NCBI GenBank assembly: GCA_019454045.1
Contig: SKCR01021365.1
Span: 1-64,000 of the forward strand
DNA length: 64,000 nucleotides
Direction of reading: 5' to 3'
DNA from: Zanthoxylum bungeanum
Taxonomy: Eukaryota > Streptophyta > Magnoliopsida > Sapindales > Rutaceae
The translations under genes were made by a program, and so were the position numbers. How positions within the stretch are numbered: position 1 is the first letter of the stretch; every line of letters begins with the position of its first letter. Shown here one piece after another: positions 38,742 through 63,740 of the stretch. The notes beneath the pieces were generated by a model. The model saw nothing but the letters and a program-made list of their open reading frames with translations. It ran no database searches and was not told where the DNA came from.

Positions 38742-38747
38742 AGTTTT

Positions 38748-43380: not shown

Positions 43381-46072
43381 TCCAACTATTTAATCAACGA
43401 TTATTGGTACTATATATATTATAATGATTATAATAGTCCAACTATATAATCAAATATAATCCAAATTAATTAACCTCAATTACATTGATTACTATAATCC
43501 AATTATAAAATCAACTATAAACTGAAATTAATTAATCCAATATATTGATTAATATAATCCAATTATATATAATCAAGTATAATACAGTCCAACTGTTTAT
43601 TAAAACAACAATTTAAATATTAGTCCAACTAACGTTTAATATTACGACGAAATAATTTGAATGATCGCGTATAGCGAGTAATTGAACGAATATTGCAAAT
43701 TCAATTTTTGCCTCCCACTATTTTTCGTCGAGCCTCTAACCCTCTGTCGAGTACTCGGGAAACCGTGTTTCCTAGTGGGCTAGGATCCCGTTAAAGTATC
43801 ACACAATCTTGACTTTGGCCAACAAATTGTATGATAATTAACTAGGTAGATCTCGAAGATCAATTGGATCTCATCCAACTCCTAGATCCAGTAGGTGGAC
43901 ATCCAAGTCCCAAACATATATCTAATATATGCCTATATATTCGAATATATACCCTAACCTTTTTCCTCTGAATCAACTAGGCCTTGGCTTTGGCACAACA
44001 AACCTAATGATCCCAGTCAAGCGCGGACCCATTGACATGGAAGCTTCGTAATCAATGTCGATGGACAAGAAGTGGTCTTGACTTTGGCCAACAAACCACA
44101 ACTTGGACATGACACCGATATGGAACAAAGCCTCGTGATTCAAGCACATCTTCGACGGACAAGGGCTTGACTTTGGCCAACAACCCCTGCCAATCTCGGA
44201 TCTTGAGCAAGAATCACTCAATGGAAGGAAAAACGCATGATATTTGTTGAGGGTTTTTCGTGTGCAAATTGGCTACCAATTTAATTATCTTTGTTAAGGT
44301 CTCATCATCATACACCCTTAAACATACATTCTAAATACATAATAAAGCGAGTATGAAAATAAATAATAATGATATGCGGATGGATACTTTACATTGATCC
44401 TAGATCAAATCTCTCCCTTTCTCACTCAAGCTAGCACTTGTATTACTTCTACCCGTTACACTACACTTCTAAAGAAACCTCATTTACATGGAGGGGAATA
44501 GGTGAGAAGAGAATACAAAGAGAATGAAGGTGATAAGGCTGGACACGCAGGTCCAATTTAATAAATCGAATTTATTACAACAATTTCTAAAATTGCCCAC
44601 CCATCTAATATCCATCCGATATACATTATTCATGCATCACAACCATGTATTCACTCACATAAGCATACTATCAATCAATCTAATCAAATTAATTAATCTG
44701 ATAATTAAGTGATCATCCAATGTTCAAACAACGATTTGATTTTGTTCGAGTCAAACTCGTTTTTGCGAATAAGTACTCAAAGTACGAATTCTCGAATCAA
44801 ATTAAACTACATAATTAAATCCAATTTAATATGCATTTAATACTAATCCAATTAATTTAATTCCAAATTAAATCTTACACTTTATTTACGAACCTTTGCG
44901 ACTTAAATTCCAAATTTAATCGTTACGGGTCTCAAAGCCCAATTAATATCCAATATTAATTTAATTAAAGTCTAATGGGCTTTTAATTAATTTCTTAAGG
45001 CGTGGACTTTTGGTCAACTCGGGTCATACCGAATAACCAAAATCCAATCCGGGAGTTAACCCATAAGCCCAGAAATCAATCTTGGCCCATTAGGCCCAAT
45101 TAAACTTTAAAGGTCCAATAGTCGCATTTGGGCTTTATGGATGCGGTTTTGGGCCCAATTGGATCCAATCCATTTGGCCTAAACCCAACTTTGTACAACA
45201 AAGCCCAATAAGCCCAATAACAATAATTTAAGCTCAATTTCCAAAATTAGCCCAATTAATTAAATTACACAAATCCAATTTCGCAATTTAATTACCTAAA
45301 GTGTATATCATGATTAATCACCCAAATTAACATTTCTGAAACATCAATTCATACAATTAATCATGCTCATTTTCATCATTACATGTCCAACACATTTTGA
45401 TTAAAATCAAACCCATTACATGCTCTTTAAGTCTCGGCCAAAAGGGAATTTATATGTCCGATTCGGTTTCAATCCAATTAAACACACAATCGACATTAAA
45501 TCAACACTTCTAATCGTTTCAAGTCATCCAATGATCAACGAAACAAAATTCCAAGACATTTAGGGCATACACCTATTCGGCCAACATATCCAAATTGGGG
45601 AAATTTGTTCCAAAAATAATTTCATCAAATTGATCCAATCAATTATCAATTAAAACATATTTAAGCATACTTAATCATCCAATTTCATAATTGCATGCTC
45701 AAATCAATTTTACCCAATTTCATGCTCATTTTCATTCTTGGCAATTTGGGGATTTTACGTCCGATTCGAATTCAATCCAATTGATTCTACAATCGACATC
45801 AAATCATCATCCCGAATGATTTCCAACACATCCAATTGTCAAAAATCAAAAATCCCAAGACAATTAAATCAATTCAATTTTCGGCCAAGGTGATTATTTG
45901 GGGAAAAAATGATCCAATCACATTTTCTTGAAATTGATCCAATCCAACTTCAATTCAAACACATTTAAGCATATTCAATCAAACAATTTAATTAATTCAT
46001 GCCCAAAATCAATTTGCCCAAATTTTAACCCTAACTTTTTTTCATGCTTTTAACCCAAGCTCTTGATGCCAT
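43381..46072 (-). mobile_element. Leader of element F (about 2.7 kb, non-coding)
   Basis: It contains three copies of the complement of the leader motif (TCTTGACTTTGGCCAACAAA and near forms) at 43807-43826, 44076-44095 and 44165-44184. A GCCCA-rich stretch lies at about 44930-45260. Two similar blocks with ACATGCTC and TTCGGCC near 45380-45720 and 45720-46020 suggest a local duplication. The primer site lies at 46059-46072. Confidence 0.8.
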
Positions 46073-47127
46073 TGTTGAGTTTTCTAAGTGTCCCAAGATC
46101 AAAATACAAGCATGAATCACAAGTGAATACAAGGACGAAGTTGCGGAATACTTACATCGAGCGGTTGAGAGACGATTTGGGCAACAAAATTCGCACTTCA
46201 CTGCCCACTGCCACTGCTCACGCAGTAACAGCCCACTGCCCTCCATTTGCTGTTTTTGGTCACCAAATTCAAGCTCCAAGCTTTCCGAAATGGTTCCCGA
46301 CTCATGGGGGGACTTCCCTATCACCTTCGCATTGATCCCGGAGTGTGCTAGCGCTCTTGTTTTGCCACAAAACCACTTGCTTCCCTCCATTTTTGCTTCA
46401 AAACTCACGGTCAAACAAGTAAAGTAAAGAAGAAAATGGCGTGAGAGAGATGAGCAATATTTGGCTCCAAAATGATAATAACGTGAGAGAGAGAGAGTTA
46501 GTTGAAAAGTAAGTGTATTAGGTTTATTTTATTTCCAAAATAATAAACCAAATACCACTTTTTCATTTGGAAAAAGTCAAGCACTTAATGCTTCAACAAC
46601 TTCCATCAATCACCATCAATCACATCAATCAATCTTGTCAAGTCACATCACTCAAAGTGACAAGTGATTTGACGCTTGATGCGACTAGTGATTTGACGCT
46701 TGATTTGACTTGCGTGCCGCACTCGAATTCGAAACGCGAATGCGCTCGCAAACAATCCTGGGCTCGGGTTCGCTAATTCCAAATTAACGAATTTTCTGTC
46801 GCGTCGTAATTAAATGATTACGCCAAGCGAAATCACTATTCACGTCGCTAACGAATTAATTCTAAATTAATTCGCTCGCCCGAATTAAAATCTAATTTTA
46901 ATTCCGCGTCGAAATCCAATTTCGTTTAATATGTCAAATATATTAATTAATCGATTAATTCCAAATTAATCATCCTCTCTCTCTTTAATGATATTTTATC
47001 CTAGATAAAATATCTCCGTAATAATCCTAGATCAATTTTCTCTCTCATCATATTCATCCCAGATTAATAAAAAGTGCGAGTCATACGTCATCGGTGAATC
47101 TTTGGGAAGCGACCCATGAGATCCCCT
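46073..47127 (-). mobile_element. 5' LTR of element F, first part
   Basis: It starts TGTTGAGTTTTC next to the primer site and matches 38999-40027. It is interrupted at 47127 (GAGATCCCCT) by element G and continues at 57239 (CCCCGGATATG). Confidence 0.9.
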
Positions 47128-47503
47128 TGTTGGTTTCTATAATGTGTCCCAAACAAAGATTAAGCATATGAAATACTATAAATGAATATATATATATAAA
47201 AGACTTGAAGCATGGCGGAATCATACTTACAAAGCTATGTGATGAAGAAGATGATCAAATGGTGGAAGCTCCAAGTGTTGGAAGATTCGGCCAAGAGGAG
47301 GAAGAAGACTTGAAGCTCCAAGCTTTTGTATTCCAAGCTCTTTGATGGTTTCCCTATCACCTCCTTTGATCCCTTGCTTGTGCTAGCAAAAATGGAGAAT
47401 AGAAGATCAAATCTTCCTTTGCCCTTCCATGAAGTTCACGGCAATGTGAAGAAATTTGAGAGAGAAAGAGTTTTGTGTAATTGATTTTGTTTTACCAAAA
47501 ATC

Positions 47504-47511
47504 AATTTATA
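47504..47511 (-). promoter_or_regulatory. Candidate TATA box of element G 3' LTR
   Basis: The minus strand reads TATAAATT about 40 bases before a CTCTTTCTCTCTC stretch (47456-47470), a plausible start region. If correct, the hairpin run and the small LTR reading frame lie in U3. A second TATA-like sequence, ATATATAAAT at 48974-48983, near the LTR start, is an alternative. Confidence 0.35.
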
Positions 47512-49098
47512 TTTATGCCATAATTTATTAAATTAATAATAAATCTATGACACAAAACATGCAATGGCTTAGAGTGTCAAACACTCAAACTCCATGCAAA
47601 ACCTTTGAGTGTAATGCACACTATCACCATGCAATGCCTTTGAGTGTAATGCACACTATCACCATGCAATGCCTTATCAATTAAATAATGCATATAATGA
47701 CAAGTGTCATGTGGGCCCCACACGTTTCCAAATGAAAGTGGGCCCACGTGCACTCACGCGTTCGGGTTCGATATTTCCGAAATACCGAGCTTACGTCGCG
47801 ACGTTAATTAAACCGAATTTAAATAAATAATTGCGCCTGGCGAAATTATTATTTACGTCTCTAACGAATTAATTCTAAATTAACTCGTATGCCCGAATTA
47901 AAATCTAATTTTAATTTCGCGTCGAAATCGAATTTCGATTATTATATCGAATATAATAATTTTATTGATTAATTCCAAATTAATCGTTCTCTCTCTAATT
48001 AGGCACTTTATCCAAGATAAAGTTTCTCCGCAATTAATCCAAGATTAATTAAGTCCGAATCAAATATCATAGGTGAATCTTCAGGAAGCGACCCAAGAGA
48101 TCTCCGGATATTTTGGCAGTAAATACGGTCGTCGGATAATCCGAACACGTACGTACCTCGTACTACGTCTTTACCGATTCACAAGACAAGGTTGGCTTCT
48201 AGCAAAGCGCCATGCCTACCCAATTCTCCAGAAATATTCTTATAGGAACATAAGATCTATATCAAGCGTAGTATACCGTAGTATTGCGTACATCGATCCA
48301 GTATCGGATGATCACATGTTAGGCCTGGGGCTGGAGATGTGTCTGCCCCGTACGAAACATATATCGGACATCAAGCAACCAGTCTCTTTAAATCGGACAA
48401 TCCTGACCTGGTCATATTGTCCCGACGGTTGCAACCTTTTATAGAGTACTAGTTCTGTGCCCTGCGTGATCATCACCTCCATATGTCTGAAGCGATACTT
48501 CCATCTCGACATCACATCCAGTACACTACGATTCTCGATAAACCCAGAAGAGGTGTACACAGAACCGGTTAAGGTCCCCAACCACCAAAACCAAAGTTTA
48601 CGGATTGTCGCAAGTACTAGCGATGTAAGTCTCAGGTTAAGACCATATACACCTACCCTGATGCGGCCTCCCATAGACACGCAGACATACTACCAATGGG
48701 ATTCCGCGGGGTCTATCCAGAGCGAAGCTGTTTTCCGTACCATCGGTAAAACACAACCTCCTATCGCACTTGCATAAGTATCCAATACTTAAATATATGA
48801 GAACTATGCCGTTGTGCCCTCACAACGTGCACAAGCGCAATACTAGTCTATTCCGCATTATCGATGTCCGATCTCGATAATACTCCGACTAGGGATATTT
48901 AATGATTAAACCTTTATGGATTGATACTGTCTCATATCATCTCAATCCGGTACTAATCATATGGACTTTCGCCATTTATATATCAAAGTAAATAACATTA
49001 CAAAACGGCAAAAGGCAATTTCATTATCACATAGTTAATTTTGTACAATAATACAATATCATTTACAAACAGTGACGCTCTGGGACATAATGTCTAAC

Positions 49099-49111
49099 AA
49101 TCTCCCACTTG
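49099..49111 (-). other. Polypurine tract of element G
   Basis: The minus strand reads CCAAGTGGGAGAT(T) directly before the LTR start TGTTAGAC at 49098. Confidence 0.8.
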
Positions 49112-49113
49112 GC

Positions 49114-49356
49114 CTATAGCCAGTCACTCAAGCATCTAATACCCGAACTATGTATGTGTCGTTCAAAAACTTGCTGAATGACAGCCTTCGTCAGCGGGTC
49201 TGCAATGTTATCATCTGATGTGACCTTCTCGACTTTTACATCGCCACCATGTATAATCTCCCGAATCAGATGGTAACGTCGAAGAACATGCTTGGACCGT
49301 TGATGAGACCTTGGTTCCTTAGCCTGCGCTATAGCCCCGTTATTGTCACAATACAA
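49114..49356 (-). CDS. Element G RNase H C-terminal part (fragment)
   Basis: This 80-codon frame holds the end of copia RNase H: LYCDNNGA-like start (MYCDNNGAIAQAKEP), SKHVLRRYHLIREI and NIADPLTKAV, ending close to the polypurine tract. It belongs with the frame at 49408-50085; the two are separated by about 50 bases through a frameshift. It is not a separate gene: it is the end of the pol polyprotein, which in the cell would be cleaved inside the virus-like particle. The residue content is normal for the family. Confidence 0.85.
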   Translation of the reverse strand: MYCDNNGAIAQAKEPRSHQRSKHVLRRYHLIREIIHGGDVKVEKVTSDDNIADPLTKAVIQQVFERHIHSSGIRCLSDWL

Positions 49357-49407
49357 TGGAACGGGCTCAGCTGCTAACGGAACTACTCCTAATCCGATTA
49401 GGAACTT

Positions 49408-50085
49408 TCAGATCCAAACTGCCTCCTTTGCTGCTTCAGATGCAGCGATGTACTCCGCTTCTGTTGTTGAATCGGCGACAGTATCTTGCTTGGAAGATTT
49501 CCAGCTCACTGCTCCGTTATTCAAACAAAAAATGTACCCGGATTGTGACTTGTAGTCATCCTTGTCGGTTTGGAAACTTGCATCGGTATACCCAGATACC
49601 GCAAGTTCTCCGCCTCCATAAATTAAGAAAGCATCCTTAGTTCGTTTAAGATACTTAAGGATATTCTTAACTGCTATCCAGTGACCTTCACCTGGATCGG
49701 CCTGATAGCGACTGCACTTGCTCAAAGCATATGAGACATCAGGTCGTGTACATATCATGGCATACATGATCGATCCGACTGCCGAGGCGAATGGTATCCG
49801 ACTCATGTTGTTTCTCTCTTCCTGAGTCTTAGGACACATGTCCTTAGACAGAGAGGTACCACGTACCATTGGAACCAATCCCCTTTTGGATTGTTCCATG
49901 TTGAATCGCTTCAATACTTTATCAATGTATGTACTCTGGGAGAGTCCAAGCAGCTTTCTAGATCTATCCCGGTAGATCTTTATTCCAAGAATAAAGGCTG
50001 CTTCTCCCAGATCTTTCATGGAGAATTTTAATGAAAGCCAAGCTTTCACCGACGTTAGCATGGGAATGTCATTGCCTATCAGCAA
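49408..50085 (-). CDS. Element G reverse transcriptase C-terminal half and RNase H
   Basis: This 225-codon open frame begins just after the catalytic YVDD (MLIGNDIPML). It carries the RT thumb/connection (FSMKDLGEAAFILGIKIYRD, SQSTYIDKVL, CTRPDVSYALSKCSRYQADP) and RNase H (SGYTDASFQTD, SQSGYIF, ADSTTEAEYIAASEAAKEA). It copies the element RNA into DNA and removes the RNA strand. The start is not a true initiation site; a frameshift between this frame and 50079-50420, at a T-run near 50100, splits the YVDD from the upstream palm. Confidence 0.88.
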   Translation of the reverse strand: MLIGNDIPMLTSVKAWLSLKFSMKDLGEAAFILGIKIYRDRSRKLLGLSQSTYIDKVLKRFNMEQSKRGLVPMVRGTSLSKDMCPKTQEERNNMSRIPFASAVGSIMYAMICTRPDVSYALSKCSRYQADPGEGHWIAVKNILKYLKRTKDAFLIYGGGELAVSGYTDASFQTDKDDYKSQSGYIFCLNNGAVSWKSSKQDTVADSTTEAEYIAASEAAKEAVWI

Positions 50086-50632
50086 TACGTCGTCGACATA
50101 AAGGACAATAAAAGTAAGTTCTCTCCACTAACCTTCTTGAATACACAAGGGTCATCTGCGTTTTGCACGAAATCATATTCTTTTATGATCTCATCAAAAC
50201 GCTGATTCCATGACCGTGATGCTTGCTTCAATCCATAAATGGATCGATTTAACTTACAAACCTTGTTTGCAAGTCTTGGCACGATAAAACCGTCAGGCTG
50301 TTGCATATAAACATCCTCCAAAAGGTTTCCGTTAAGGAAAGCGGTCTTAACGTCCATCTGCCATATCTCGAAGTCGAAATATGCAGCTATTGCAAGCATT
50401 ATCCGAATGGATTTAATCATGGCAACGGGGGTGAGAAGGTTTCGTCATAATCAATACCGTATTGTTGACGATACCCATTCGCTACAAGCCTAGCTTTGTA
50501 CATTTGAACGTTGCCATCCATGTCGGTCTTCTTCTTGAAGATCCATCTGCATCCAATAGGCTTTACGCCTTCTGGTGCATCAACCAGTGTCCAAACTTGG
50601 TTGGCGTACATGGAATCCATCTCGGACTTCAT
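50079..50632 (-). pseudogene. Element G reverse transcriptase N-terminal half, frameshifted
   Basis: Two overlapping frames. 50417-50632 carries [31 protein letters not shown] and [20 protein letters not shown], then shifts after FSP. 50079-50420 carries [37 protein letters not shown] and [13 protein letters not shown], then shifts before the YVDD, which is readable in the next frame. The two lesions are single-base changes at a C-run (about 50425) and a T-run (about 50100). All fingers and palm motifs are otherwise intact, so decay is very recent or these are sequence errors. Confidence 0.88.
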
Positions 50633-51876
50633 GGCTTCTTGCCATAAAGCGGAATCGATATTTCGTATCGCTTCCTCATACGTAGCCGGCTCATTATCCT
50701 CAATAAGATAATATCTACATGAGGTGAGATCAGGAACCCATACCTCTCAGGTACTGTTCTGACTCTCTCCGACCTACGCGGTCCTTGTGTATGTGAAGTT
50801 TGTGGTACAGACTCATCCCGGACGGTCTGTTCTTGTTCCGTCGTTGATTCATTGCCAGGAACAGTATCACTTCGATCTTCATCGAGTTCTACTTTCCTCC
50901 CACTTACCACTGCATTTATAAAATCCTTCTCAAGGAAAAATGCATGTAGAGCAACAAATACTTTGTTCTCTTGCGGGTGATAGAAGTAATATCCTTTGGT
51001 TTCCCTAGGATATCCTACGAAAAGGCATTTATCAGATTTGGGTTCAAGTTTGGTACCTTCCAAACGTTTAACATATGCCCAGCATCCCCAAATCTTCAGG
51101 AAAGAGAAACCTGGTTTCCTTCCTGTCCATATTTCATACGGAGTCTGTTCAACAGACTTCGACGGTACCTTATTCAAAATAAGTATAGCCCTGTTTAATG
51201 TGTATCCCCAGAAGGATATTGGTAGCTCAGTGCGACTCATCATTGACCTTACCATGTCCAACAAGGTGCGGTTTCTCTGTTCGGACACACCGTTTAATTG
51301 CGGTGTTCCAGGAGGAGTCCACTGTGAAAGAATACCATATTCTTTCAAGTAATCTTGAAACTCATAACTTAAGTATTCCCCACCACGGTCTGACCGTAAT
51401 GTCTTAATACTCTTCCCTGTTTGTTTCTCCATTTCGTGTCGAAACTCTTTGAATTTCTCAAAAGTTTCCGACTTGTGTCTCATAAGATACACATAACCGT
51501 AACGAGATGCATCATCTGTAAAGGTTACGAAGTAGTGAAATCCACCTCTAGCCTGGCTAGACATGGGCCCGCATACGTCAGTATGAACGAGAGCCAACAG
51601 TTCTGTGGCACGTTCACCTTTACCGCTAAAAGGTGATTTAGGCATTTTGCCTAAAAGACAAGATTCGCAGACGTCATATGAATTGGGATCAAATTCGTCC
51701 AAGTACCCACTCTTTGAAAGTGTGGATATGCGAGTCTTGTTGATGTGTCCTAGACGACAATGCCACATGTAAGCTTCATCTTTTAGATTACTCCTTTTGA
51801 GCCTTTTGTTTGTCATTTTAGGAGATTCATTTATTTTCAAAATATAAAGACCGTTATTGCAACAGCTGCTGTGCAA
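50629..51876 (-). CDS. Element G integrase ORF (415 codons)
   Basis: This is the longest open frame in the window. Near the start is the GAG-pre-integrase zinc site ([14 protein letters not shown] ... [12 protein letters not shown], residues about 33-75). The D,D,E core follows: HTDVCGPM (about 92), [11 protein letters not shown] (about 160) and [18 protein letters not shown] (about 180-198, the catalytic E being in SEQ). The C-terminal part includes [20 protein letters not shown] and [14 protein letters not shown]. The enzyme joins element cDNA to host DNA in the nucleus. The last about 35 residues are out of frame relative to relatives, from a shift near 50715. It overlaps 51854-52627 by 23 bases through another shift. 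Confidence 0.9.
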
Positions 51877-52627
51877 ATTTCTGCATCACTTTATATAAAT
51901 AACACCCTGTGTTTCTAAATACAAAAGTGTAACCCTGCTGGGTTAACAATGATACAGATATAATATTCCTAGTTAAACTAGGTAAAAAATAACAGTTCAA
52001 AAGTTTAAGTACATGCCCTGAGGGCAGTTCTAAAACAAAAGTCCCTACGGCCAAAACAGCAACTGGTGTTCCGTTTCCGACCCGTAGATCCATCTCCCCC
52101 GATGCCAGCACCCTGCTATCATGCAGATCCTGCACATCAGTACAAATATGAGCACCACAACCAGAATCAAAAATCCAATTTTTAAAACTAGAAGTATTCA
52201 TATTTATCTCAATGACAAACATACCAGAGGCGATGGCCTTGCCAGCCTTGATATCCTCCCTCTGCCCATTGCTCATTCGGCAGTCACGTTTCCAGTGACC
52301 CCTCTTGCCGCAGTTGAGGCAGATGTCGCGAGATTTGTCCTTTGGCTTCCTAGAAGCCACTGTCAACTTGCCTTTGCCCTTCTTCTTGAAATTCTTCTTC
52401 CTCGCACCTCCAATTGCCTTAGGCCCAGCCCTTGGCGCATGAGAGGTCGATGCATAATGCGCCTCGCGCTTGCTCCCCTTTAGGAGTTCCTTTTCAGACT
52501 CCTTCAGCACGGACAACAACTCTCCGAGAGTGTCGTCAGTATCCATCAACTTATAGTTGATGATGATTTGTTTCCAAGTATCGGGCAGCGATTGCAATAT
52601 CATATCAATCGTCAGCTCTGCCTCCAA
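51854..52627 (-). CDS. Element G gag C-terminal part and protease ORF (257 codons)
   Basis: This frame begins inside gag (MEAELTIDMILQSLPDTWKQ; the M is probably internal). It continues through ELLSVLKESEKELLKG, a lysine-rich linker and a complete CCHC knuckle (CLNCGKRGHWKRDC, about residues 97-110), which binds the element RNA. The aspartic protease follows with FDSGCGAHI (catalytic DSG, about residue 150) and ends with LLNCYFLPSLTRNIISVSLL. The reading frame is lost near 51870 where integrase starts in another frame. All key residues are present, in contrast to element A, where the last knuckle cysteine is tyrosine. Confidence 0.9.
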   Translation of the reverse strand: MEAELTIDMILQSLPDTWKQIIINYKLMDTDDTLGELLSVLKESEKELLKGSKREAHYASTSHAPRAGPKAIGGARKKNFKKKGKGKLTVASRKPKDKSRDICLNCGKRGHWKRDCRMSNGQREDIKAGKAIASGMFVIEINMNTSSFKNWIFDSGCGAHICTDVQDLHDSRVLASGEMDLRVGNGTPVAVLAVGTFVLELPSGHVLKLLNCYFLPSLTRNIISVSLLTQQGYTFVFRNTGCYLYKVMQKFAQQLLQ

Positions 52628-53065
52628 GACAATGCCATATTGGCTAACTCATCTATGTCAGCGATCATTTGAGTCCCGTGGGCCTCAACTGATGCGCCGT
52701 CTGTCATCCGGGAGCGGAAGAGTTTCCTTACTAGCTCGTACCTCTTCATCCGCTTGTAGTGCGGTGAAGATCACGCAATCTTGCCATCATGTTATAGGGA
52801 TCCAAGTCCCTATTCTGGCGTCTGAAATGCTGGGTCATTGCAGCGAGCATAATTGACTGAGCTTGGTCACAATCATCACTATGAGTTTCCATAACTCTAG
52901 CTCCAGTGGCTCAGTGGGGTTTAGGCAGGAGAGGTCTCTGAATAGTATACAGCACCCTCTCAGCCCCAAGCACTATTTGAGGTTCATTTCCCAGTCGGCA
53001 AAGTTTGTCCCTTTGAAGACATTATCGCCCATGATTATGTCGCGGATATTACCTTTGCCAATCAT
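52628..53065 (-). pseudogene. Element G gag N-terminal part, frameshifted
   Basis: The likely gag start is the ATG at 53065 on the minus strand, giving MIGKGNIRDIIMGDNVFKGT and then FADWEMNL, followed by a stop. The remainder to 52628 is similar to gag of element A (5064-5528) but needs several single-base corrections to read through. The product would be the capsid precursor. Confidence 0.8.
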
Positions 53066-55274
53066 CTTGACGACTATAGTCCAACTATAAAGTCAACGAT
53101 GTTATGGGTACAGTCAAACTGTTACAAGTAAAATAACAATATATTAGTACAACTAATTTTTAAAAATATTGACGAAAATATTTTGAAAGATGCGTAAGGC
53201 TAAATATCTGAACGAAATTGCAAATTCAATAATAGCCTCCCACTATTTTCTTCAAGTCTCTAACCCTCTGTAGAGAACTCGGGAAATCGAATTTCCTAGT
53301 GGGCTAGGATCCCGTTAAATAACACACAACCTTGACTTTGGCCAATAAAAAAAATGTATGCTATTTAACTTAGGTAGATCTCCATGATCAATTGGATCTC
53401 ATCCAATTCCTAGATCCGGTTAGGTGGACATCCAAGTCCGAAACATATGTAAATGTCAATATATCCAATACATTTTCCTAACCCTATCCTCTGAATCATC
53501 TAGGCCTTGGCTTTGGCCAAAAACAAACCTAATGATTCCAGTTAAGCGGGACCCATTGACGAGGAAAGTTTCGTAATCAATGTCATTGGAAAAAAGTGAC
53601 TTGACTTTGGCCATAAAAATCACGATTTGGACAAGACACCGATATGTAACAGAACTCTCATGATTCAAGTACATCCTTGATTGACAAAGGTCTTGACTTT
53701 GGTCAAAAACAAACCAATGCCAACTTCGGATCTTGAACAAGAATCATTCAATGGAAGGATATTGCTTAATATAATTGAGGGATTTTCGCGTAATTGGCAA
53801 CCATTTATTTATCTTTGTTAGGTCTCATAATCATTACACCCTTAAGCATGCTTCTAAAACATCATAAGCGCGTAAAGTAAATTAATAGTGATATGCGGAT
53901 GGATATATAAACAACTTGTTCCTAGAACAAATCACTCCCTTTCCTCTCCCCGCTAGCACTATTCTACTTCTACCCAATTACATAATACAATAAGAGAAAC
54001 CTCATTTACATTGAGGGGAATTAGGTGAGAAGAGAATACAAAGAGATAAAGAGATAAGGCTGGACACGCAGGTCCAATTTATAAATTCCAAATTACAATA
54101 ATTTCTAAAATTACCCTTTCCCTTCTAATATCCATCCGATATACACTATTCATTCCTCACATACATATATATTCAAACAAGACATGCTTCTACAACCAAT
54201 CTAATCCAATTAATTAGTCTTTGTTTAAGTGATCATCCAATGTTCAAACAACGGTTTGATTTTGCGCGAGTCCAACTCGATTGAGAATAAGTACATAAGG
54301 TACGAATTCGCGAATTATATCGAACTACTTATTAAATCTGATTTATGATTTAATTCGTATTCAATACTAATCATTTATTTAATTCCAAATTAAATGTTTA
54401 CACTTTTAATGTGCTTTAAAGACTTAGATTCTAAATCTAATTCTATTGGGTCTCAAAGCCCAACTAACATCCAATGTTTAATTTAATTCAAGTCAAATGG
54501 GCTTTCAATTGATTTATTAAGGCTTGGGCTTTGGTCAATGGGGTCAAACCCAATACCAAGCCCAAATAAGGAATCACCCTTAAAAGCCATAAAACCAATT
54601 TTAAGCCCATAAGGCCCAATTAAATTATTAAAGCCCATTATATTATATTTGGACTTAATGGAGTGATTTAGGCCCAAATTGGATCCAATCCTTTTGGCCC
54701 AAATCTACTTGGTCCAACCAAGCCCATTATGCCCAAATACAATATTAAAAGCCCAATTCACCAATTAAGCCATTAATAAATTTTAATATTCCAAACATTA
54801 AAGTCCAATTAATTAAAGTGTAATACCAAGATTAATACATTAAACCAAATATTTCAAAAATACCCATTTAATTTATTAATCATGTATTTTGCAAAATAAA
54901 TGTCCAAAAATTAATTTATCAAAAAATCAACTCCATTTCATGTCCTTGTAGATTCGGCCAAGGTAAGTTTTTTGTGTCGATTTTTTTTCAATCCGATTGA
55001 ATTACTAATCTACGTCCCGTATACGTTCTAAGTCATCCAATGATCTTAAACACAAAAATTCCAATACATCAAATGTAACATCACATTCGGCCAAGGCATA
55101 AATTTGGGGGAAAAACATCCAATGCATTTTTCATAAAATTGATTTCATATTATGTCATTTAACATACATATAAGCATACTCATTCATCAAATTTCACAAG
55201 AACATGCTTCAATCAATTTTACCCAAATTTTAACCTAAAGTATTTCATGCTTAAACCTAGCTCAATGATACCAT
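53066..55274 (-). mobile_element. Leader of element G (about 2.2 kb, non-coding)
   Basis: It matches leaders of C, F and H. It has the CTCTAACCCTCTGTAGAG block near 53260, and copies of the leader motif in reverse (CTTGACTTTGGCCA-type) near 53331, 53599 and 53694. A GCCCA-rich stretch lies at about 54450-54780, and the primer site at 55261-55274. Confidence 0.8.
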
Positions 55275-57238
55275 TGTTGGTTTCTATATGTGTCCCAAAC
55301 AAAGATTAAGCATATGAAAACTATAAATGAATATATATATAAAAGACTTGAAGCATGGCGGAATCATACTTACAAAGCTATGTGATGAAGAAGATGATCA
55401 AATGGGTGGAAGCTCCAAGTGTTGGAAAGATTCGGCCAAGAGGAGGAAGAAGACTTGAAGCTCCAAGCTTTTGTATTCCAAGCTCTTTGATGGTTTCCCT
55501 ATCACCTCCTTTGATCCTTGCTTGTGCTAGCAAAAATGGAGAATAGAAGATCAAATCTTCCTTTTGCCTTTCCATGGAGTTCACGGCAATGTGAAGAAAT
55601 TTGAGAGAGAAAGAGTTTTGTGTAATTGATTTGTTTTACCAAAAATCAATTTATATTTATGCCATAATTTATTAAATTAATAATAAAAATCTATGACACA
55701 AAACATGCAATGGCTTAGAGTGTCAAACACTCAAACTCCATGCAAAACCTTTGAGTGTAATGCACACTATCACCATGCAATGCCCTTGAGTGTAATGCAC
55801 ACTATCACCATGCAATGCCTTATCAATTAAATAATGCATATAATGACAAGTGTCATGTGGGCCCCACACGTTTCCAAATGAAGTGGGCCCACGTGCACTC
55901 ACGCATTCGGGTTCGATATTTCCGAAATACCGAGCTTACGTCGCGACGTTAATTAAACCGAATTTAAATAAATAATTGCGCCAGGCGAAATTATTATTTA
56001 CGTCACTAACGAATTAATTCTAAATTAACTCGTATGCCCGAATTAAAATCTAATTTTAATTTCGCGTCGAAATCGAATTTCGATTATTATATCGAATACA
56101 ATAATTATCGATTAATTCCAAATTAATCGTTCTCTCTCTAAATTAGGCACTTTATCCAAGATAAAGTTTCTCCGCAATTAATCCAATATTAATTAAGTCC
56201 GAATCAAATATCATAGGTGAATCTTCAGGAAGCGACCCAAGAGATCTCCGGATATTTTGGCAGTAAATACGGTCGTCGGATAATCCGAACACGTACGTAC
56301 CTCGTACTACGTCTTTACCGATTCACAAGACAAGGTTGGCATCTAGCAAAGCGCCATGCCTACCCAATTCTCCAGAAATATCTTATAGGAACATAAGATC
56401 TATATCAAGCGTAGTATACCGTAGTATTGCGTACATCGATCCAGTATCGGATGATCACATGTTAGGCCTGGGGCTGAAGATGTGTCTCCCCGTACGAAAC
56501 ATATATCGGACATCAAGCAACCAGTCTCTTTAAATCGGAAAATCCTGACCTGGTCATATTGTCCCGACGGTTGCAACCTTTATAGAGTACTAGTTCTGTG
56601 CCCTGCGTGATCATCACCTCCATATGTCTGAAGCGATACTTCCATCTCGACATCACATCCAGTACACTACGATTCTCGATAAACCCAGAAGAGGTGTACA
56701 CAGAACCGGCTAAGGTCCCCAACCACCAAAACAAAGTTTACCGATTGTCGCAAGTAACTACGATGTAAGTCTCAGGTTAAGACCATATACACCTACCCTG
56801 ATGCGGCCTCCCATAGACACGCAGACATACTACCAATGGGATTCCGCGGGGTCTATCCAGAGCGAAGCTGTTTTCCGTACCATCGGTAAAAACAACCTCC
56901 TATCGCACTTGCATAAGTATCCAATACTTAAATATATGAGAACTATGCCGTTGTGCCCTCACAACGTGCACAAGTGCAATACTAGTCTATTCCGCATTAT
57001 CGATGTCCGATCTCGATAATACTCCGACTAGGGATATTAATGATTAAACCTTTATGGATTGATACTGTCTCATATCATCTCAATCCGGTACTAATCATAT
57101 GGACTTTCGCCATTTATATATCAAAGTAAATAAACATTACAAAACGGCAAAAGGCAATTTCATTATCACATAGTTAATTTTGTACAATAATACAATATCA
57201 TTTACAAACAGTGACGCTATGGGACATAATGTCTAACA
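55275..57238 (-). mobile_element. 5' LTR of element G
   Basis: The ends are TGTTGGTTTCTATATG and ...ATGTCTAACA. Compared with the 3' LTR at 47128, most differences are missing single bases in short homopolymers, for example near 55287, 56383, 56489 and 56730. Confidence 0.9.
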
Positions 57239-58241
57239 CCCCGGATATGTTGGCAGTAAATACGGTCGTCGGAGTATCCAAATCTCGTACGTACCAAGTA
57301 CTACGTCTACCGATTTACGAGACAAGGTCGGCTCCTAGCAAAGCACGATGTCTACCAAATTCTCCGGTCATATTCATCTAAGAATATTAAGATCTGTATC
57401 AAGCGTAGTATACCATTGTATTGTGTATATCGGCCCAGTATCGGATAGTCACGTGCCAGGGCTGGGGCTGGATAAGTGTCTGCCCCGTCCGAAACACATA
57501 TCGGATGTCTGGTAACATAGTCGCTATAATCGGATATTCATGACATGGTCACAATATCCCGATTGGATGCGCATCACTCAAGAGCACTAGTATCGTATCC
57601 TGCGTGACATCATCTACACTATGACTGAAGTGATACTTCCGTCTCGACATCACACCCAATACACTACGACTCTCTGATAAACCCAGAAGTGGTGTACACA
57701 GAACCGGTTAAAGCCCTGTAACACCAAGACCAAAGTCTATCGATTATCGTAAGTATTAGCAATGTAAGTCTCAGGTTAAGATTATACACACCTACCTTGA
57801 TTTCGGCCTCCCATAGACACATAGTCATAATACCAATGGGATTCTGAGGGGTCTATCCAGAGCGAAGCTGTTTCCCGTACCATCGGTGAAACACGACCTC
57901 CTATCGCACTTGCATAAGTATCCTATACTTATATATATGAGAACTATGCCGTTGTGCCCTCACAACGCGCACAAGTGCAATACTAGCCTATTCCGCATTA
58001 TCGATGTCCAGTCTCGATAATACTCCGGCTAGGGATATTTAATGATTAATCCTTCGGGGACTGATACTGTCTTATATCATTCTCAGTCCAGGAACTAATC
58101 ACAGGGACCTCTCATCATTTATATATCTATGGTGATCTAATCACTAATGATGAGAGTGCAATTTCCTTGTCACATAGTTAATTTATACAACAACACCATG
58201 ATCTGTACAAATAGTGACGCTATGGGTCATATTATCCAACA
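57239..58241 (-). mobile_element. 5' LTR of element F, second part
   Basis: It continues from 47127 at CCCCGGATATGTTGGCAG and ends ...GGGTCATATTATCCAACA, followed by the CTTTG duplication and E's gag. Confidence 0.9.
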
Positions 58242-58246
58242 CTTTG

Positions 58247-59486
58247 AACGTTGCACCACCAATTCCCATTCGAGACAGAACCATTCCGGTGGTTGACAGA
58301 CTCATTTCCTGTATTGTACTTCCTCCCTTACCAGCAAATGTGTGTGACATCAAAACATGCATTCAGATGATTCAGCAGCAGTCAGTTCAGTTCGGGGGGA
58401 ATGCAACTGAAGATCCTAATTCCCACATCAGCAACTTCCTGGAAGTTTACGGCACTTTTAACTACAACAGAGCATCAGAAAGAAGCAATGAGACTGCGTG
58501 TTTTTCCATACTCCTTGAAGGACAGAGCTAAAGCTTGGCTACATTCACTACCAGCAGGTTCCATCACAACATGGAACACTTTAGCCACCAAATTTCTGGC
58601 AAAGTACTTTCACCAGCCAGAACCGGAAAATTGAGGAATGACATCACATCTTTTGTACAACAAGATTCAGAATCCCTCTGCGAAGCTTGGGAAAGGTATA
58701 AAGATTTACTTCGGAAATGTCCTCACCATGAGATTCAAAAATGGCTTCAAGTCCAAACATTCTATAATGGGCTTTCTGGAATAATGAGAACCACAATCGA
58801 TGCTGCTGCTGGAGGAGCCTTGATGGCAAAAGGAGAAGATCAAGCCTGGGACCTAATCGAAGAAATGGCCAACAACAATTCCTTGTGGCCAACAGAAAGG
58901 AGCATGATCCAAAGAATTGCAGGAATTTATGAAGTTGGAGCAAACACAGCAGTGAATACCAGGCTGGATCAGATATGCAAATGTCTAGAAAACTTAGCAC
59001 GCAAGTTGTAAACATCGCTGGATCCACAAGTTCACATATGGAGGAGCACCAGAACCAAACCAACATGAAGAGACGGTGAATTATGTCAACAATTTCAACA
59101 GACAAGGGAACAATCCATATTCCAACACCTACAACCCAGGGTGGAAAAATCATCCTAATTTATCATGGAGCAACAATTCAGGCCAACAGCAGAACTATCC
59201 ATCACCTGAATTCCAACAACAGAACAAAGGCCAGGAGCAGGCAAATGAATCAGGAATAACAGAAGTGTTGACCTACTTGAAAAAGATGGAAGCAAAACAC
59301 GACTCTCAAGCAGCAAGATATGATACTATATTTCAAAGCCATTTAGCCTCTATCAAAGCACTGGAGAATCAAATGGACAACTGGCAAATGCTCAGAGTTA
59401 CAGACCGCCAGGTACCCTTCCTAGCAACCCAGAGCCAAATCCAAGGAACATGGGGGGGAATGAGCAATGTCATGCCATCATGTTAA
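58247..59486 (+). pseudogene. Element E gag, 3' part (Athila type), frameshifted
   Basis: The frame resumes in register after element F (NVAPPIPIRDRTIPVVDRLI). Four open stretches follow. 58247-58531 ends at LLEGQS. 58401-58634 contains the retrotransposon gag core (RAKAWLHSLPAGSITTWNTL, KFLAKYF). 58535-59011 contains LCEAWERYKDLLRKCPHHEI, TFYNGLSGIMRTTIDAAAGG and DLIEEMANNN. 59076-59486 contains NPYSNTYNPGWKNHPNLSWS and a glutamine-rich tail. Shifts near 58500, 58625 and 59030 break it. The order and motifs are those of Athila gag, the structural shell protein. Confidence 0.9.
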
Positions 59487-59562
59487 AAAGCGGTACTGAA
59501 ATCAACAAAGATGTTGGAGCCAAAACAACTGTTGAGGAAGTCCAAAAGAAACAAAGCAACAG

Positions 59563-60186
59563 ATGGAGGAAAAAGAAGCAAAGGAAAAAGAACAGATCAC
59601 TCCACCTCCACATTTTCCTCAACATCTTCAGAAGACCAAATTGGACAAGAAGTTTTCTCGGTTCCTGGAGATCTTCAAAAAGCTGCATATCAACATTCCA
59701 TTTGTAGAAGCGTTGGAACAAATGCCCACCTATGCCAAATTCATGAAAGATATTCTTTCACGAAAACGGAGATTGGGAGATTACGAGACAGTAGCATTAA
59801 CAGAAGAATACAGTGCCATCATTCAGAGGAAACTTCCCCCGAAGTTGAAAGATCCTGGCAGTTTCACTGTTCCTTGCGTCATAGGAGAACATAACTTTGG
59901 TAAGGCTTTGTGTGATTTAGGTGCGAGAGTTTACTTGATGCCTTTCTCTATTTTCAGGAAATTTCAGATTGCAGAAACAATGCCAACTTCAGTCTCACTG
60001 CAACTTGCTGATAGAACGCTCGTATTTCCGAGAGGCGTAGTTGAGGATGTGCTGGTCAAGGTTGACAAATTCATTTTCCCAGCAGATTTTATTGTCCTTC
60101 ATATGGAGGAAGACGCAGACGTACCAATCATCATTGGGAGACCATTCTTGGCTACAGGTCGAACAATTATTGATGTACAAAAATGA
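59563..60186 (+). CDS. Element E gag-pol linker and aspartic protease (207 codons)
   Basis: The frame runs from a charged segment (MEEKEAKEKEQITPPPHFPQ) through FVEALEQMPTYAKFMKDILS, typical of Athila polyproteins before the protease. The protease follows, with ALCDLGARVYLMPFSIF (about residues 116-132). The catalytic aspartate is in DLGA, and the family usually has DLGAS where this copy has DLGAR. The flap and IIIGRPFLATGRTIIDV (about 188-204) are intact. The frame stops at a TGA (60184-60186) where relatives continue with a glycine codon. The next frame continues the same protein after this stop. The ATG used is probably internal to a longer gag-pol frame. Confidence 0.87.
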   Translation: MEEKEAKEKEQITPPPHFPQHLQKTKLDKKFSRFLEIFKKLHINIPFVEALEQMPTYAKFMKDILSRKRRLGDYETVALTEEYSAIIQRKLPPKLKDPGSFTVPCVIGEHNFGKALCDLGARVYLMPFSIFRKFQIAETMPTSVSLQLADRTLVFPRGVVEDVLVKVDKFIFPADFIVLHMEEDADVPIIIGRPFLATGRTIIDVQK

Positions 60187-60195
60187 GAATTAACC

Positions 60196-60789
60196 ATGAG
60201 GGTACAGGACCAAGAAGTAACACTCAATGTTTTCAAGGCCATGAATTTCCCAGATGATGAAAAGAAGGAGGAATGTTTCAGACTAGATGTGATACACAGT
60301 ACCATTCAAAACTCCAATGCAATGCAAAGTTCTACTGACAAACTTAAAACATGTCAATTGCCTGTGGAGCCTAAAGATAAAGCGTCTTTTGTACTGAAAG
60401 AGCCAATTCTTGCACTACAAGCAACAGAAGAGAAAAAGTTCCACCAACTCAACGAATTGGAGGAATTTCATAATCAGCCTTTTGAGGATGCCAAATTGTA
60501 CAAAGAAAAGGGCAAGAAGAGACATGATGAGAAGTTAGTGCGCATACAACTGGAACCAGGGCAGAAGGTACTGTTAAACAAATCAAGGGTGAAATTCTTC
60601 CCATGGAAGCCAAAATCACGGTGGTCAGGTCCATTTGTGATCACCAAAGTTTTACCAAATAGAGCCGTTGAGATACATGATCCTGACGCTAACAAAACTT
60701 TCAAGGTTAAAAACAAGCGTGTCAAGCACTACTGGGGAGAAACATTTGAGCGACAAAAAGAAAGTGTTACACTTTCAGATCCAACTTAA
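60196..60789 (+). CDS. Element E protease tail fused to integrase C-terminus (deletion product)
   Basis: The 197-codon frame first continues the protease region (MRVQDQEVTLNVFKAMNFPD, EECFRLDVI). Near residues 70-85 it passes directly into the C-terminal end of a Ty3 integrase: LNELEEFHNQPFEDAKLYKE, KKRHDEKL, PGQKVLLNKSRVKFFPWKPK, SRWSGPFVITKVLPNRAVEI and KTFKVKNKRVKHYWGE. RT, RNase H, the integrase zinc site and the D,D,E core are absent. The deletion is in frame and lies near 60410-60440. The product cannot reverse-transcribe or integrate. Downstream is GCGCTAGCAGGGAGGCAACCC (60829-60849), a stretch commonly found after pol in these elements. Confidence 0.87.
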   Translation: MRVQDQEVTLNVFKAMNFPDDEKKEECFRLDVIHSTIQNSNAMQSSTDKLKTCQLPVEPKDKASFVLKEPILALQATEEKKFHQLNELEEFHNQPFEDAKLYKEKGKKRHDEKLVRIQLEPGQKVLLNKSRVKFFPWKPKSRWSGPFVITKVLPNRAVEIHDPDANKTFKVKNKRVKHYWGETFERQKESVTLSDPT

Positions 60790-60925
60790 CGTTCGAGAAG
60801 CCAAGTCTGGCTGACGACTTTAAACTTAGCGCTAGCAGGGAGGCAACCCATGCAATTTATGTATATATTGTGATTTGGTGTGTTTTATTTTTGTGTTTAA
60901 TTTTTGCAGGATTAGTCATTTCAAA
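60790..60925 (+). other. Spacer after pol with a splice-acceptor-like sequence
   Basis: It contains the GCAGGGAGGCAACCC block and then a T-rich stretch ending TTTTTGCAG at 60901-60909, a good plant 3' splice site. In Athila elements the third ORF is thought to be expressed from a spliced RNA, so this may be the acceptor for the following segment. The donor was not identified. Confidence 0.5.
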
Positions 60926-61485
60926 ATGGAAGATGCTCTCGCAAATCTTCGCAAGCAATTTCCTTCTCTCCCTCAAAAATCTCTGATGAAAGTTTACAAA
61001 GCTCGCTTGGAACGGATGAGGTTACTGACAATTCACGGTGTCCTAATGATATTCGTTGGGTAATTGAAGCACGAGTCCGATTGGCAGGTGAGTCTTCTGA
61101 CTCTTTTATTTCACATCTGCCTGGTTTTGGAGAAGAAGCACCTATGCAAAGAAACGAAGAGCTAAACAAATGGGTGTTTGTTTTAAATGTGCACGATTTA
61201 ATTGCAACACTCGTTGTCGTTCTTTAGGAATGGTGTCTGATAATCGCGAAGACAAAATAAATTCATTAGGGATGGCTTGAGTAAGGAGTCTTTAGATGAA
61301 ATATCTTCAACTCTTGAGACGCATCCCAGTGGATATGTTCACATGCCATTCGCAACTTACATACACAATTCCAAAAAGAAAGACAACAATTAGGTCTCGG
61401 GAATCTGACTCAAAAAGACCCTGTTTGCCAATTTATAAGAAAATTGGATGGGAAGCTTGTCCCTGACGCATAGACGTCAATCAAG
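60926..61485 (+). pseudogene. Unrecognised degenerate coding segment upstream of the LOG ORF
   Basis: Starting at an ATG (60926) shortly after a splice-acceptor-like site, coding-like sequence runs through three frames. First MEDALANLRKQFPSLPQKSL to LERMR; then, after a shift near 61020, CPNDIRWVIEARVRLAGESS and FISHLPGFGEEAPMQR; then, after a shift near 61147, KRRAKQMGVCFKCARFNCNT with RCRSLGMVSDNRED. Beyond a TGA near 61278 more fragments follow (SLDEISSTLETHPSGYVHMP, KDPVCQFIRKLDGKLVPDA). The cysteine pattern C-x2-C-x4-C-x3-C suggests a metal-binding knuckle. I do not recognise the family. Its position suggests it is part of the same third-ORF transcript as LOG. At least four lesions make it a pseudogene, or sequence errors are present. 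Confidence 0.55.
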
Positions 61486-61731
61486 CTGTTACTTTTTCTG
61501 TAAATATTATATCTCTTTGTCTTTTCTTAATAATTATGATTTGTTTTGTTGTTTTCTTTTATTTTCTCCGACAGGATCAGACCTTTTTGACTATCACAAT
61601 ATTATTTCGCTACTAATCGTCCTCTGGAAGATACTTGTGCTATTTTTACTCACCCTTTTCAGGTACTATAAATTCAGCCATCATTGCACTTTTGAAGGCA
61701 TCCAGAGTTGAGAAAGAAAAGAAATACATAA
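61486..61731 (+). other. Possible intron and short coding remnant before the LOG ORF
   Basis: CTGTAAATAT (about 61498) could be a donor and TTTCTCCGACAG (about 61564-61575) an acceptor, with a T-rich stretch between. After it, GTINSAIIALLKASRVEKEK reads in one frame (about 61662-61721) and leads towards the LOG start in a different frame. The LOG protein may therefore have had a longer N-terminus. Confidence 0.4.
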
Positions 61732-61758
61732 AAATGGAAGCCACTTCAAGAAGACGAG

Positions 61759-62388
61759 TTGAAAAATATCTGTGTATTTTGCGGTACTAGTGTTGGAACT
61801 AAACCACAATATGTAGAAGCAGCACAGGAATTGGGTCGAGTCTTAGCAGCAAGGAATATGCACTTAATATATGGCGGAGGCAATCTCGGACTTATGGGGA
61901 TCGTTTCAAAGGCTGTACAGGAAGGAGGCAGTAACGTTTTGGGAATCATCCCAAAACCCTTGGCAGAGGCAAATCTTATTGGATCATCAAACGGAGAGGA
62001 ACTTATCGTGCCAGGTATGTCTGAACGATTGGTAGAAATGATTAGCTGTGCTGATGCTTTTATCGCTTTGCCAGGTGGCTTGGGTACATTGGAGGAAATT
62101 TTTATAGTTCTATCTTGGGCGAACCTGAACATACACCAGAAACCGCTTGGACTGCTCAACGTTGATGGATTTAATGATTTTCTTTGTGTGTTTCTTGATG
62201 ATGCTCGGAGAAATGGGTTCATATCAAAACCTTTAAAAGAACTCCTCTTTACTGCCAGAACTGCTCCAGATCTAATAGACCAACTCTTAGCCTATGAACC
62301 ACAAGTTGACCCTATCCTTTCAAAGATAAATTGGTCTGAGGACGAACGTGGTAAGAGGCGGCGGATTAATCTGGATCTTAACCTTTAA
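61759..62388 (+). CDS. LOG-family (cytokinin riboside 5'-monophosphate phosphoribohydrolase-like) ORF in an Athila-like element
   Basis: The 209-codon frame counted from a TTG is open from 61732; there is no in-frame ATG at the front. An ATG at 61734 is one base out of frame, so the true start is probably lost by a small indel near 61740. Motifs (numbering from the TTG): ICVFCGTS (4-11), YGGGNLGLMG (38-47, phosphate-binding loop), LGIIPKPL (61-68), the LOG arginine in MSERLVEM (R90), LPGGLGTLEE (104-113, with the catalytic glutamate) and KPLGLLNVDGF. Known LOG enzymes release active cytokinin base from its nucleotide in the cytosol. The MHxRK motif of known LOGs is MSERL here, so activity is uncertain. 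The C-terminus has GKRRR followed by LDLNL. Length is normal for LOG (about 210). It lies between pol remnants and the 3' LTR of the same element. Confidence 0.85.
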   Translation: MKNICVFCGTSVGTKPQYVEAAQELGRVLAARNMHLIYGGGNLGLMGIVSKAVQEGGSNVLGIIPKPLAEANLIGSSNGEELIVPGMSERLVEMISCADAFIALPGGLGTLEEIFIVLSWANLNIHQKPLGLLNVDGFNDFLCVFLDDARRNGFISKPLKELLFTARTAPDLIDQLLAYEPQVDPILSKINWSEDERGKRRRINLDLNL

Positions 62389-63728
62389 TTTCCTGTAGAT
62401 TTTCAGCTAACCAGGTACGACCTTCTTAACTCTCCTTTTACTGTTTAAGACATTGGGGACATGTCTCATTTAGGTTGGGGGAGGAAATTAGTTGATTAGT
62501 ACCTTGTTTTAGTTTGTATGTTGTTTTTATTTTTAGTCCAAAATTTTTCGAAAATACAAAAAAAAATTGAAAAATTTTCAAAAAAAATTACACAAATATT
62601 TTGAGTTTTTGTATTTTTAATTTGACTAAAAAAGTGAAATTGGTAAGAGATAGCTGAGTAAGGGTTCCATTCCTGAGACGTATCTCAAGCCTATTTCGAA
62701 ACAAGTTAATTTTTGTTTATTTCATTTTAAATTATTTAATTTGTGAATTCTCCTTAAAAACGGACTAAAAGAATCTTCATATGCTCAATTGACAGATATT
62801 ATCAACATATATAGTAACATACGGACATGAGCTAAAATTGAAAAGTTTGTAATATTCAGTGCTCTAGTTTAATTGGAGGAAGCATCTCAAAAAGCAATGG
62901 AGTAAAAAAAAAAAAAATTCTGATTTACAAAAATAAAGTATCTAAGATCCGGGTTCCGGGTTGTTATAAGTCTGTAAGGGTGTTTTAACATCTAGTGCCC
63001 TAAAACCAACTGGTTTGGGAGTCACTGGCCCAAAACTCGCTACATGGATCAAAGATGCTGCAAAAATATATATATCTGGAATCTGAGTAATTAAGTCCGT
63101 AGGGGTGTCTTAACACCTGGTGCCCTAAAGCCAACTGGTTTGGGAGCCACCGACCCAACACTCGCTACATAGATGGAAGATATTGTATATAAATAAAAAA
63201 TAGAGAAAAATCAAAGAAAAAATTAGAAAAATGAGAAAAATTATTCCATTGCTATAAAAAAGGTGTGAAATCTGATAGAACTTTAGGACAAAAATATTAC
63301 TCTCTTATCAACTGCACTTATGACTGTTGTGGGCAAAAATGAGTTGATTAATATTTTGTTAGCTGTGTATATGGAGAATGGTAAAAATAATCGGAGATTT
63401 TACTTATTCGGTAATTTAGAATAAAAAAACAACTAGTAACTTGGAGTAGAAGTTTCACCTGATTAGTCACTAACTTCTTTATTCTCTTTTCGCTTGTCTT
63501 TTTGCTTTTGTGTGCATTAGTTTTAACTAAGTTTTTACTTTTGTAAAATGTTTTTGGGTATCATTGCTGTAAACCCTCACGAGACTACAACTCGTCCCTT
63601 AGGGACACCTAGGGGTTTAAAGGCTTGTTGCATACGCTAAATGCAATCGTGCTCCCTACGAAAGTGGCTTAGTTAATTTATTTATGTTATTTTACTCTAT
63701 GTTTTGCTCGAGGACTAGCAAAATGTTA
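62389..63728 (+). mobile_element. 3' non-coding region of element E with spaced repeats
   Basis: No gene was recognised. It includes an internal polypurine-like block after GACATTGGGGACATGTCTCA (TTGGGGGAGGAAA, about 62475-62487). Two copies of a roughly 95-base repeat lie at about 62955-63050 and 63090-63185 (shared GTGCCCTAAA and CCAACTGGTTTGGGAG). A symmetrical CCCTTAGGGACACCTAGGGG stretch lies at about 63596-63615. Long non-coding 3' regions with such repeats are usual in Athila elements. Confidence 0.75.
62955..63185 (+). repeat. Two-copy spaced repeat in element E 3' region
   Basis: Copy one (about 62955-63050) and copy two (about 63090-63185) share CCAACTGGTTTGGGAG, GTGCCCTAAA and ACTCGCTACAT with scattered substitutions. 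The period is about 135 bases. Confidence 0.7.
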
Positions 63729-63740
63729 GGTTTGGGGGTG
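63729..63740 (+). other. Polypurine tract of element E
   Basis: GGTTTGGGGGTG lies immediately before the LTR start TGATGAGTGG. Confidence 0.82.

Follow-up and report, generated by a model that had tools for sequence, protein, structure and literature searches.

The window analysed here is a stretch of 64,000 nucleotides of Zanthoxylum bungeanum contig SKCR01021365.1 (positions 1 to 64,000 of the forward strand), and it holds an LTR retrotransposon with two accessory genes in its 3′ part. Using the LTRs of other copies as probes to set the limits, we placed the 5′ LTR at 36560–38743 (+); it has the ends TGATGAG...CCGGTCA, is 92.5% identical to the LTR of copy L038 and also matches the element's own 3′ LTR, the two differing by a K2P distance of 0.0227. 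The 3′ LTR begins at 63741 (+), fills the window to position 64000 and runs on to 65915 of the same contig (locus L031). Of the extent given in a preliminary description of this DNA, the 3′ LTR stood, and the element turned out to be larger than had been noted, with the 5′ LTR and the primer site also inside the window. A primer-site string (at ~38749), which we take to be of the tRNA-Asp type, and the start of the interior occupy 38744–38998 (+), of which 38745–38998 is 99.6% identical to the interior of copy L042. This match stops here and picks up again at 58242, which marks 38999–58241 as nested foreign insertions. Copia-type gag-pol frames lie inside the element's interior at 49408–52648 (−), and further Copia-like frames are found at 6050–6823 (+), 12322–13053 (−) and 13860–14546 (−), the type being judged by eye throughout. 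Paired LTRs, the primer site and a polypurine tract, AGGTTTGGGGGTG (63728–63740, +), directly adjoining the 3′ LTR, together with target duplications in other copies, identify the element as an LTR retrotransposon; no target duplication was found around the window copy itself.

The coding part resumes with gag (58242–59486, +), which is split over several frames and matched Retrotrans_gag (PF03732) with an E value of 1.5e-10, the gag of the open copies L048 and L038 reaching about 1e-24 against the same model. It is followed by a protease region (59536–60186, +), with a counterpart frame in L048 that matched aspartyl protease models at E values of 0.009 and 0.025, below their cut-offs, and by a remnant resembling the C-terminal end of integrase (60187–60789, +). 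The remnant was called by eye from a motif of this domain; the same fused layout is seen in L048:7467–9023, and a Pfam search of the remnant gave no match. Reverse transcriptase (RT), RNase H and the integrase core are absent from the window element. On the basis of its primer site and layout, the element is presumably of the Athila type. According to the available text of PMC6317226, Athila lineage membership is judged by placement in RT, RNase H and integrase trees; these defining domains (RT, RNase H and integrase core) were not found among the fetched copies.

Downstream, an acceptor-like TTTTTGCAG (60901–60909, +) precedes a gene resembling those for carlavirus cysteine-rich proteins (60926–61473, +), which has frameshifts in the window copy (L001) and is open in other copies. 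The motifs TTTTCAG (61656) and TATAAAT (61667), a possible acceptor and a possible TATA box (61656–61673, +), then lead to a LOG-family frame with the tail INLDLNL (61732–62388, +). The protease frame, the integrase-end-like remnant and LOG share one sense, the first two lying upstream of LOG. The position claimed for the LOG frame, between the pol remnant and the polypurine tract and 3′ LTR in the same orientation, was borne out, as were its reading frame and motifs. The idea of LOG as a lone third ORF did not survive, with the virus-like gene sitting between pol and LOG in the family to which the window copy belongs (family A, below); because of this gene, the interval 60926–62388 covers two genes.

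The LOG frame spans 218 codons from stop to stop, of which 61759–62388 is the last 209, and carries YGGGNLGLMG and LPGGLGTLEE. LOG-family membership follows from scores above cut-off against PF03641 (E = 6.3e-33; 114.2 bits, cut-off 27) and TIGR00730 (158.5 bits, cut-off 96.35), with PGGxGTxxE and the catalytic Arg and Glu present. The curated cytokinin-activating model NF058542 scored 106.9 bits, below its cut-off of 300, in a comparison without ordinary plant LOGs as yardstick. The closest solved structure is Arabidopsis LOG3 (2a33; E = 2.6e-59), and for the open copy L002 the AlphaFold2 prediction (mean pLDDT 85.8, pTM 0.82) superimposed on AtLOG3 with a TM-score of 0.95 over the target. 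The window copy itself is broken near its start, because its ATG (61734) is not in phase with what follows.

The family of the virus-like gene matches Pfam Carla_C4 and Viral_NABP, both describing carlavirus cysteine-rich proteins: the open copy L046:9119–9718 (gene at 9173–9718) scored 29.3 bits against PF01623 (cut-off 20.9) and 29.1 bits against PF05515 (cut-off 23), and each of the two models matched 74 of 90 aligned relatives at E ≤ 0.001, leaving 16 that they did not match. Searches recovered 256 relatives at E ≤ 0.01, with Populus, Xanthoceras, Acer, Rhamnella and Orobanche as named sources among the matches listed; among the best 120 of the 256, 60 are exactly 182 amino acids long and 85 fall within 176–186. 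A basic stretch and the cysteines at 85, 88, 93 and 97 are nearly invariant. The structure model was poor (pLDDT 66.4), and its fold matches in BFVD were weak (E ≥ 0.27); of the top 12, 11 are flexivirus proteins, mostly named as silencing suppressors or nucleic-acid-binding proteins. The carlavirus likeness is therefore a matter of sequence profiles, with which the folds agree weakly. PHROGs returned nothing convincing for the virus-like protein, and IMG/VR viral contigs gave no confirmed relative of either gene. A LOG-like protein (P0100) and a virus-like one (P0142) are encoded on JGI contigs that are both 4,511 bases long and may be one and the same. In the accessible text of PMC7588395, carlavirus-type relatives are a nuclear activator and silencing suppressor, and PMC12172455 is a further source on viral relatives of the cysteine-rich protein.

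Copies and families of the element

A pattern of 30 bases spanning the LOG active site, with up to three mismatches allowed, occurred at 11,930 + 11,873 = 23,803 places in the 3.96 Gb genome, while the reversed-pattern control occurred at none. Searching the genome with the LOG protein gave at least 150 matches, each covering nearly the full query in one piece; those listed, a selection that favours the best, are 92–96% identical (the window itself aside), and 143 of the 150 are without a stop. The virus-like protein likewise gave at least 150 matches listed, at 91–96% identity (query aside).

We retrieved nine LOG copies, each with 17 kb of context. Direct repeats flank LOG on both sides in all nine; six have LTR pairs of ~2.1–2.2 kb, that of L046 being in two pieces. 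Judged by eye, 5-bp target duplications are exact in four of six copies compared (L038/39, L040/41, L042/43 and L046/47) and have one mismatch in L044/45, and none is clear at L048/49. Transposon ends around LOG itself were seen in none of the nine. LOG is resident in an LTR element and has multiplied with it to a very high number of copies, in line with what the preliminary description had proposed. In five copies the two LTRs are separated by K2P distances of 0.004–0.033, corresponding to 0.17–1.28 million years at a rate of 1.3e-8 per site per year.

The copies fall into two families. In family A (L034, L038, L040, L042, L046, L048 and the window copy) the virus-like gene is present, whether open or disrupted. 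Family B (L032, L036 and L044) has a different interior without it, in which acidic frames of no assigned kind stand directly upstream of LOG. Common to both are LOG, ~250 bases upstream of it and part of the LTR at ~80%. Thirty loci taken from the LOG protein search of the genome divided into 14 of family A, 14 of family B and 2 of neither. Tandem LOG pairs ~7.8 kb apart were seen at L034/L035 and at G000:C22805 (325486 and 333304), both LOG copies of the latter carrying a TAG stop.

RT was not recognised in the listed frames of the fetched copies or in eight frames from six copies that were scanned with profiles. Because of this, and because family A has room for gag, protease and an integrase end only, its element is probably non-autonomous, as read from sequence.

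At the 30 loci, TATAAAT lies 48–72 bases upstream of the LOG ATG in all 29 with a recognised start, TTTTCAG precedes LOG in 28 of these 29, and the string ATTTTTGCAGG is present at 7 of the 30. The two upstream motifs would be compatible with an internal promoter or with splicing. In Grande, an accessory gene has been reported to be driven by a promoter of its own (cited in PMC7264820).

Probable selection on the accessory genes

LOG variation was sampled in 40 copies, the first-listed exact matches to the motif, with the sampling motif masked. Twelve were intact, with an ATG and free of stops and frameshifts (95% range 17–47%), a share in which intact copies may be over-represented because of the way the sample was drawn; the defects were a stop in 13, a frameshift in 19 and a missing ATG in 3. 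Counts of nonsynonymous and synonymous variants (N:S) were 154:61 for variants carried by one copy, 38:26 for two, 31:33 for three to five and 24:36 for six or more, with no stop in the last class. Per opportunity, N/S fell across these classes from 0.82 through 0.47 and 0.30 to 0.22, and variants in one copy differed from those in three or more with a Fisher p of 9.4e-7; this and the following p values are guides only, because related copies share variants. Excluding C>T and G>A changes gave ratios of 0.67, 0.31, 0.11 and 0.47 (p = 0.005), a weaker signal in which the commonest class is not the lowest. By codon position (1/2/3), private LOG variants divided as 79/67/75 and common ones as 16/7/37.

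For the virus-like gene, 13 copies picked by LOG similarity gave N:S of 53:20, 24:17 and 8:18 from rare to common (one copy versus three or more, p = 3.1e-4), and the gene is intact in 8 of the 13. Purifying selection before insertion, followed by decay, would fit the variation in both genes. The comparison of N and S among element copies that the preliminary description had raised thus came out with near-neutral private and N-poor common variants, and therefore LOG appears to have been selected in the transposing lineage and to decay after insertion.

The same signal could be older than the present elements. Both genes may have been useful in an autonomous ancestor, with selection dating from that time and today's non-autonomous copies merely carrying them. 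We give this account an appreciable, minority chance. The lack of a recognised RT among the frames that the fetched copies contain, the mere 12 intact LOG frames among the 40 sampled and the sharing of LOG between two families with different interiors all speak for it. However, the LTR pairs are young (K2P 0.004–0.033), open LOG and virus-like frames occur in several young copies, and LOG variants found in three to five copies, which are likely recent, are also N-poor (31:33).

Pocket, tail and ancestry of the LOG protein

A prenyl pocket formed by Met96, His97, Lys100, Glu125 and Trp129 (C. glutamicum numbering) has been proposed, its roles being proposals based on superposition (available text of PMC4979012). 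We compared two sets of proteins, each from the best 120 relatives: 99 element-type LOGs of 200–260 amino acids and the 114 ordinary LOGs whose length was suitable. 'Element-type' was assigned from sequence and not from context in the case of unnamed metagenome proteins, above all those with a full pocket. The catalytic Arg and Glu are both retained in 90 of the 99 element-type proteins. His97, Lys100 and Glu125, in contrast, are jointly retained in 6 of these 99 versus all 114 ordinary LOGs. The window LOG has Ser, Leu and Ile at the three positions, and the 40 sampled genome copies have Ser (40/40), Leu (40/40) and either Ile (29) or Thr (11).

Because these three proposed prenyl-pocket residues are replaced, cytokinin activation by the element LOG is doubtful, and with it the cytokinin-activating role that the gene had been given at the outset. 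An enzyme that frees active cytokinin, and would thereby promote cell division and the transmission of the element, would agree with the LOG fold, the PGGxGTxxE motif and the retained catalytic residues; given Ser, Leu and Ile/Thr in place of His97, Lys100 and Glu125 in the sampled copies, and joint retention in only 6 of the 99 relatives (best 120 listed), we consider this account unlikely.

A second feature that sets these proteins apart is the C terminus. Within their last 12 residues, 92 of 120 element-type LOGs have LxLxL and none of 120 ordinary LOGs does (best 120 each); several of the 28 element-type proteins without it are truncated or have near variants. The tail falls in a low-confidence part of the L002 model. 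It may be an EAR-type motif and hence a putative co-repressor binder.

In a first tree, element-type LOGs formed one clade (support 96/89). After trimming of the tails, six full-pocket members (P0029, P0031, P0033, P0048, P0059 and P0093) stood between ordinary LOGs and the others, which again formed one clade (97/89); both trees were built without the ordinary LOG5, LOG7 and LOG10 types. Because the members nearest to ordinary LOGs have the full pocket, the lineage probably set out from ordinary LOG activity. Poplar LOG-like proteins share the clade with the window LOG; relatives of the same type in other plants, which the preliminary description had thought might exist, were thus found among the matches listed. 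Three annotated Xanthoceras proteins (P0008, P0014 and P0016) are 336–381 amino acids long and have two LOG-like parts each. A linker-like stretch joins the LOG parts in two of these and is 36–38% identical over 37–44 residues to the element's gag-protease linker, with E values of 0.005 and 0.08 among 360 proteins, faintly suggesting that LOG is element-borne in Xanthoceras as well.

A two-gene accessory region in a gypsy element

Our favoured account, which we regard as evenly poised between right and wrong, is that the window holds a decayed copy of a young, very abundant and probably non-autonomous gypsy element with two accessory genes of proposed function. Its anatomy, its copy number and a pattern of variation compatible with purifying selection on both genes are observations; the functions are proposals. 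Both lie in the gag sense in the 3′ part, the first of the carlavirus cysteine-rich, nucleic-acid-binding type and the second a putative nucleotide hydrolase of LOG fold. RT and integrase would be supplied by a putative helper element. By analogy with its viral relatives, the virus-like protein could shield element RNA from silencing or activate transcription. The LOG protein, with a base pocket that differs from that of cytokinin-activating LOGs, may hydrolyse a nucleoside 5′-monophosphate, which might favour dividing cells or dampen a nucleotide signal, and its LxLxL tail could recruit a co-repressor. How the two genes would work together is likewise something we infer. Against this account, proteins that other copies can use as well bring a non-autonomous element little benefit, and about half of the 30 LOG loci are without the virus-like gene (14 of family B and 2 of neither family).

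A host LOG gene or retrocopy lying by chance beside an LTR element would account for the proximity seen in the window and for nothing else, and can be dismissed given the identical arrangement in all nine copies with context, target duplications outside the LTRs where these are clear, and 23,803 motif places. A one-off capture of LOG was likewise ruled out, by the copy number and the relatives in other plants.

Returning to the gypsy element with two accessory genes, one could read the pair more boldly as a cassette for counter-defence and host manipulation, comparable to what viruses carry in their accessory regions. It would combine a silencing suppressor of carlavirus type, passed between retrotransposons and RNA viruses, with a LOG whose substrate has shifted from cytokinin precursors to a different nucleotide, perhaps one that signals immunity or stress, and whose tail links it to a co-repressor of transcription. 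Such a cassette would have persisted across dicot orders and been selected even in elements whose own polymerase was lost. We put this forward tentatively, as a proposal with the balance of probability clearly against it.

Each gene differs from its known counterparts. AtLOG3 and AtLOG8 (LONELY GUY) share with the element LOG the fold, PGGxGTxxE and the catalytic Arg and Glu, whereas the element LOG is a single uninterrupted frame, has an altered prenyl pocket and an LxLxL tail, and is borne on a mobile element. The carlavirus and flexivirus cysteine-rich proteins resemble the element protein in a profile match, above curated cut-offs, over the basic and cysteine-rich region; in the element protein this match spans part of the 182 amino acids, and the gene is encoded in retrotransposon and plant genome records, not in a flexivirus. 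Athila elements with env-like ORFs, Grande with its accessory gene and orchid elements with an AlkB-like domain also have an additional gene that follows gag-pol and precedes the 3′ LTR, the last a captured host enzyme shown to be active. Unlike these, the element described here has two accessory genes of different origin, one of them resembling an RNA virus protein.

No description of LOG in such elements was known to the preliminary description. However, the accessible text of PMC9289625, citing Steinbauerova 2011, already reports that gypsy elements in two Citrus species (C. sinensis and C. clementina) and in Populus trichocarpa contain a LOG (YgdH) domain, like the present case in having a LOG-type domain inside a gypsy LTR element and, in that text, without copy number, a selection test, a virus-like partner, a changed pocket or an LxLxL tail. 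The available portions of four papers on LTR elements (PMC11963269, PMC6317226, PMC11728184 and PMC7264820) and of a LOG survey (PMC11593424) do not mention LOG in elements. The open-licence literature, its hits being partly viewed, gave no further report of LOG in LTR elements and nothing joining a carlavirus-type protein with them. Thus, we found no report of the scale, selection, virus-like partner or changed pocket of LOG in LTR elements.

These findings carry a warning for annotation: a plant gene labelled 'LOG' or 'LOGL10' may be transposon-borne with an altered active site, and counting such genes as host genes would make hormone gene families look larger than they are. RNA and protein tests can address the question, given a motif that occurs at 23,803 places and intact frames in 12 of the 40 copies sampled. 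If the favoured account is true, jumping genes retain tools of the kind used by viruses and pathogens, namely silencing suppression and the manipulation of nucleotides or hormones, with possible consequences for our view of how certain LTR elements evade plant silencing and fill genomes.
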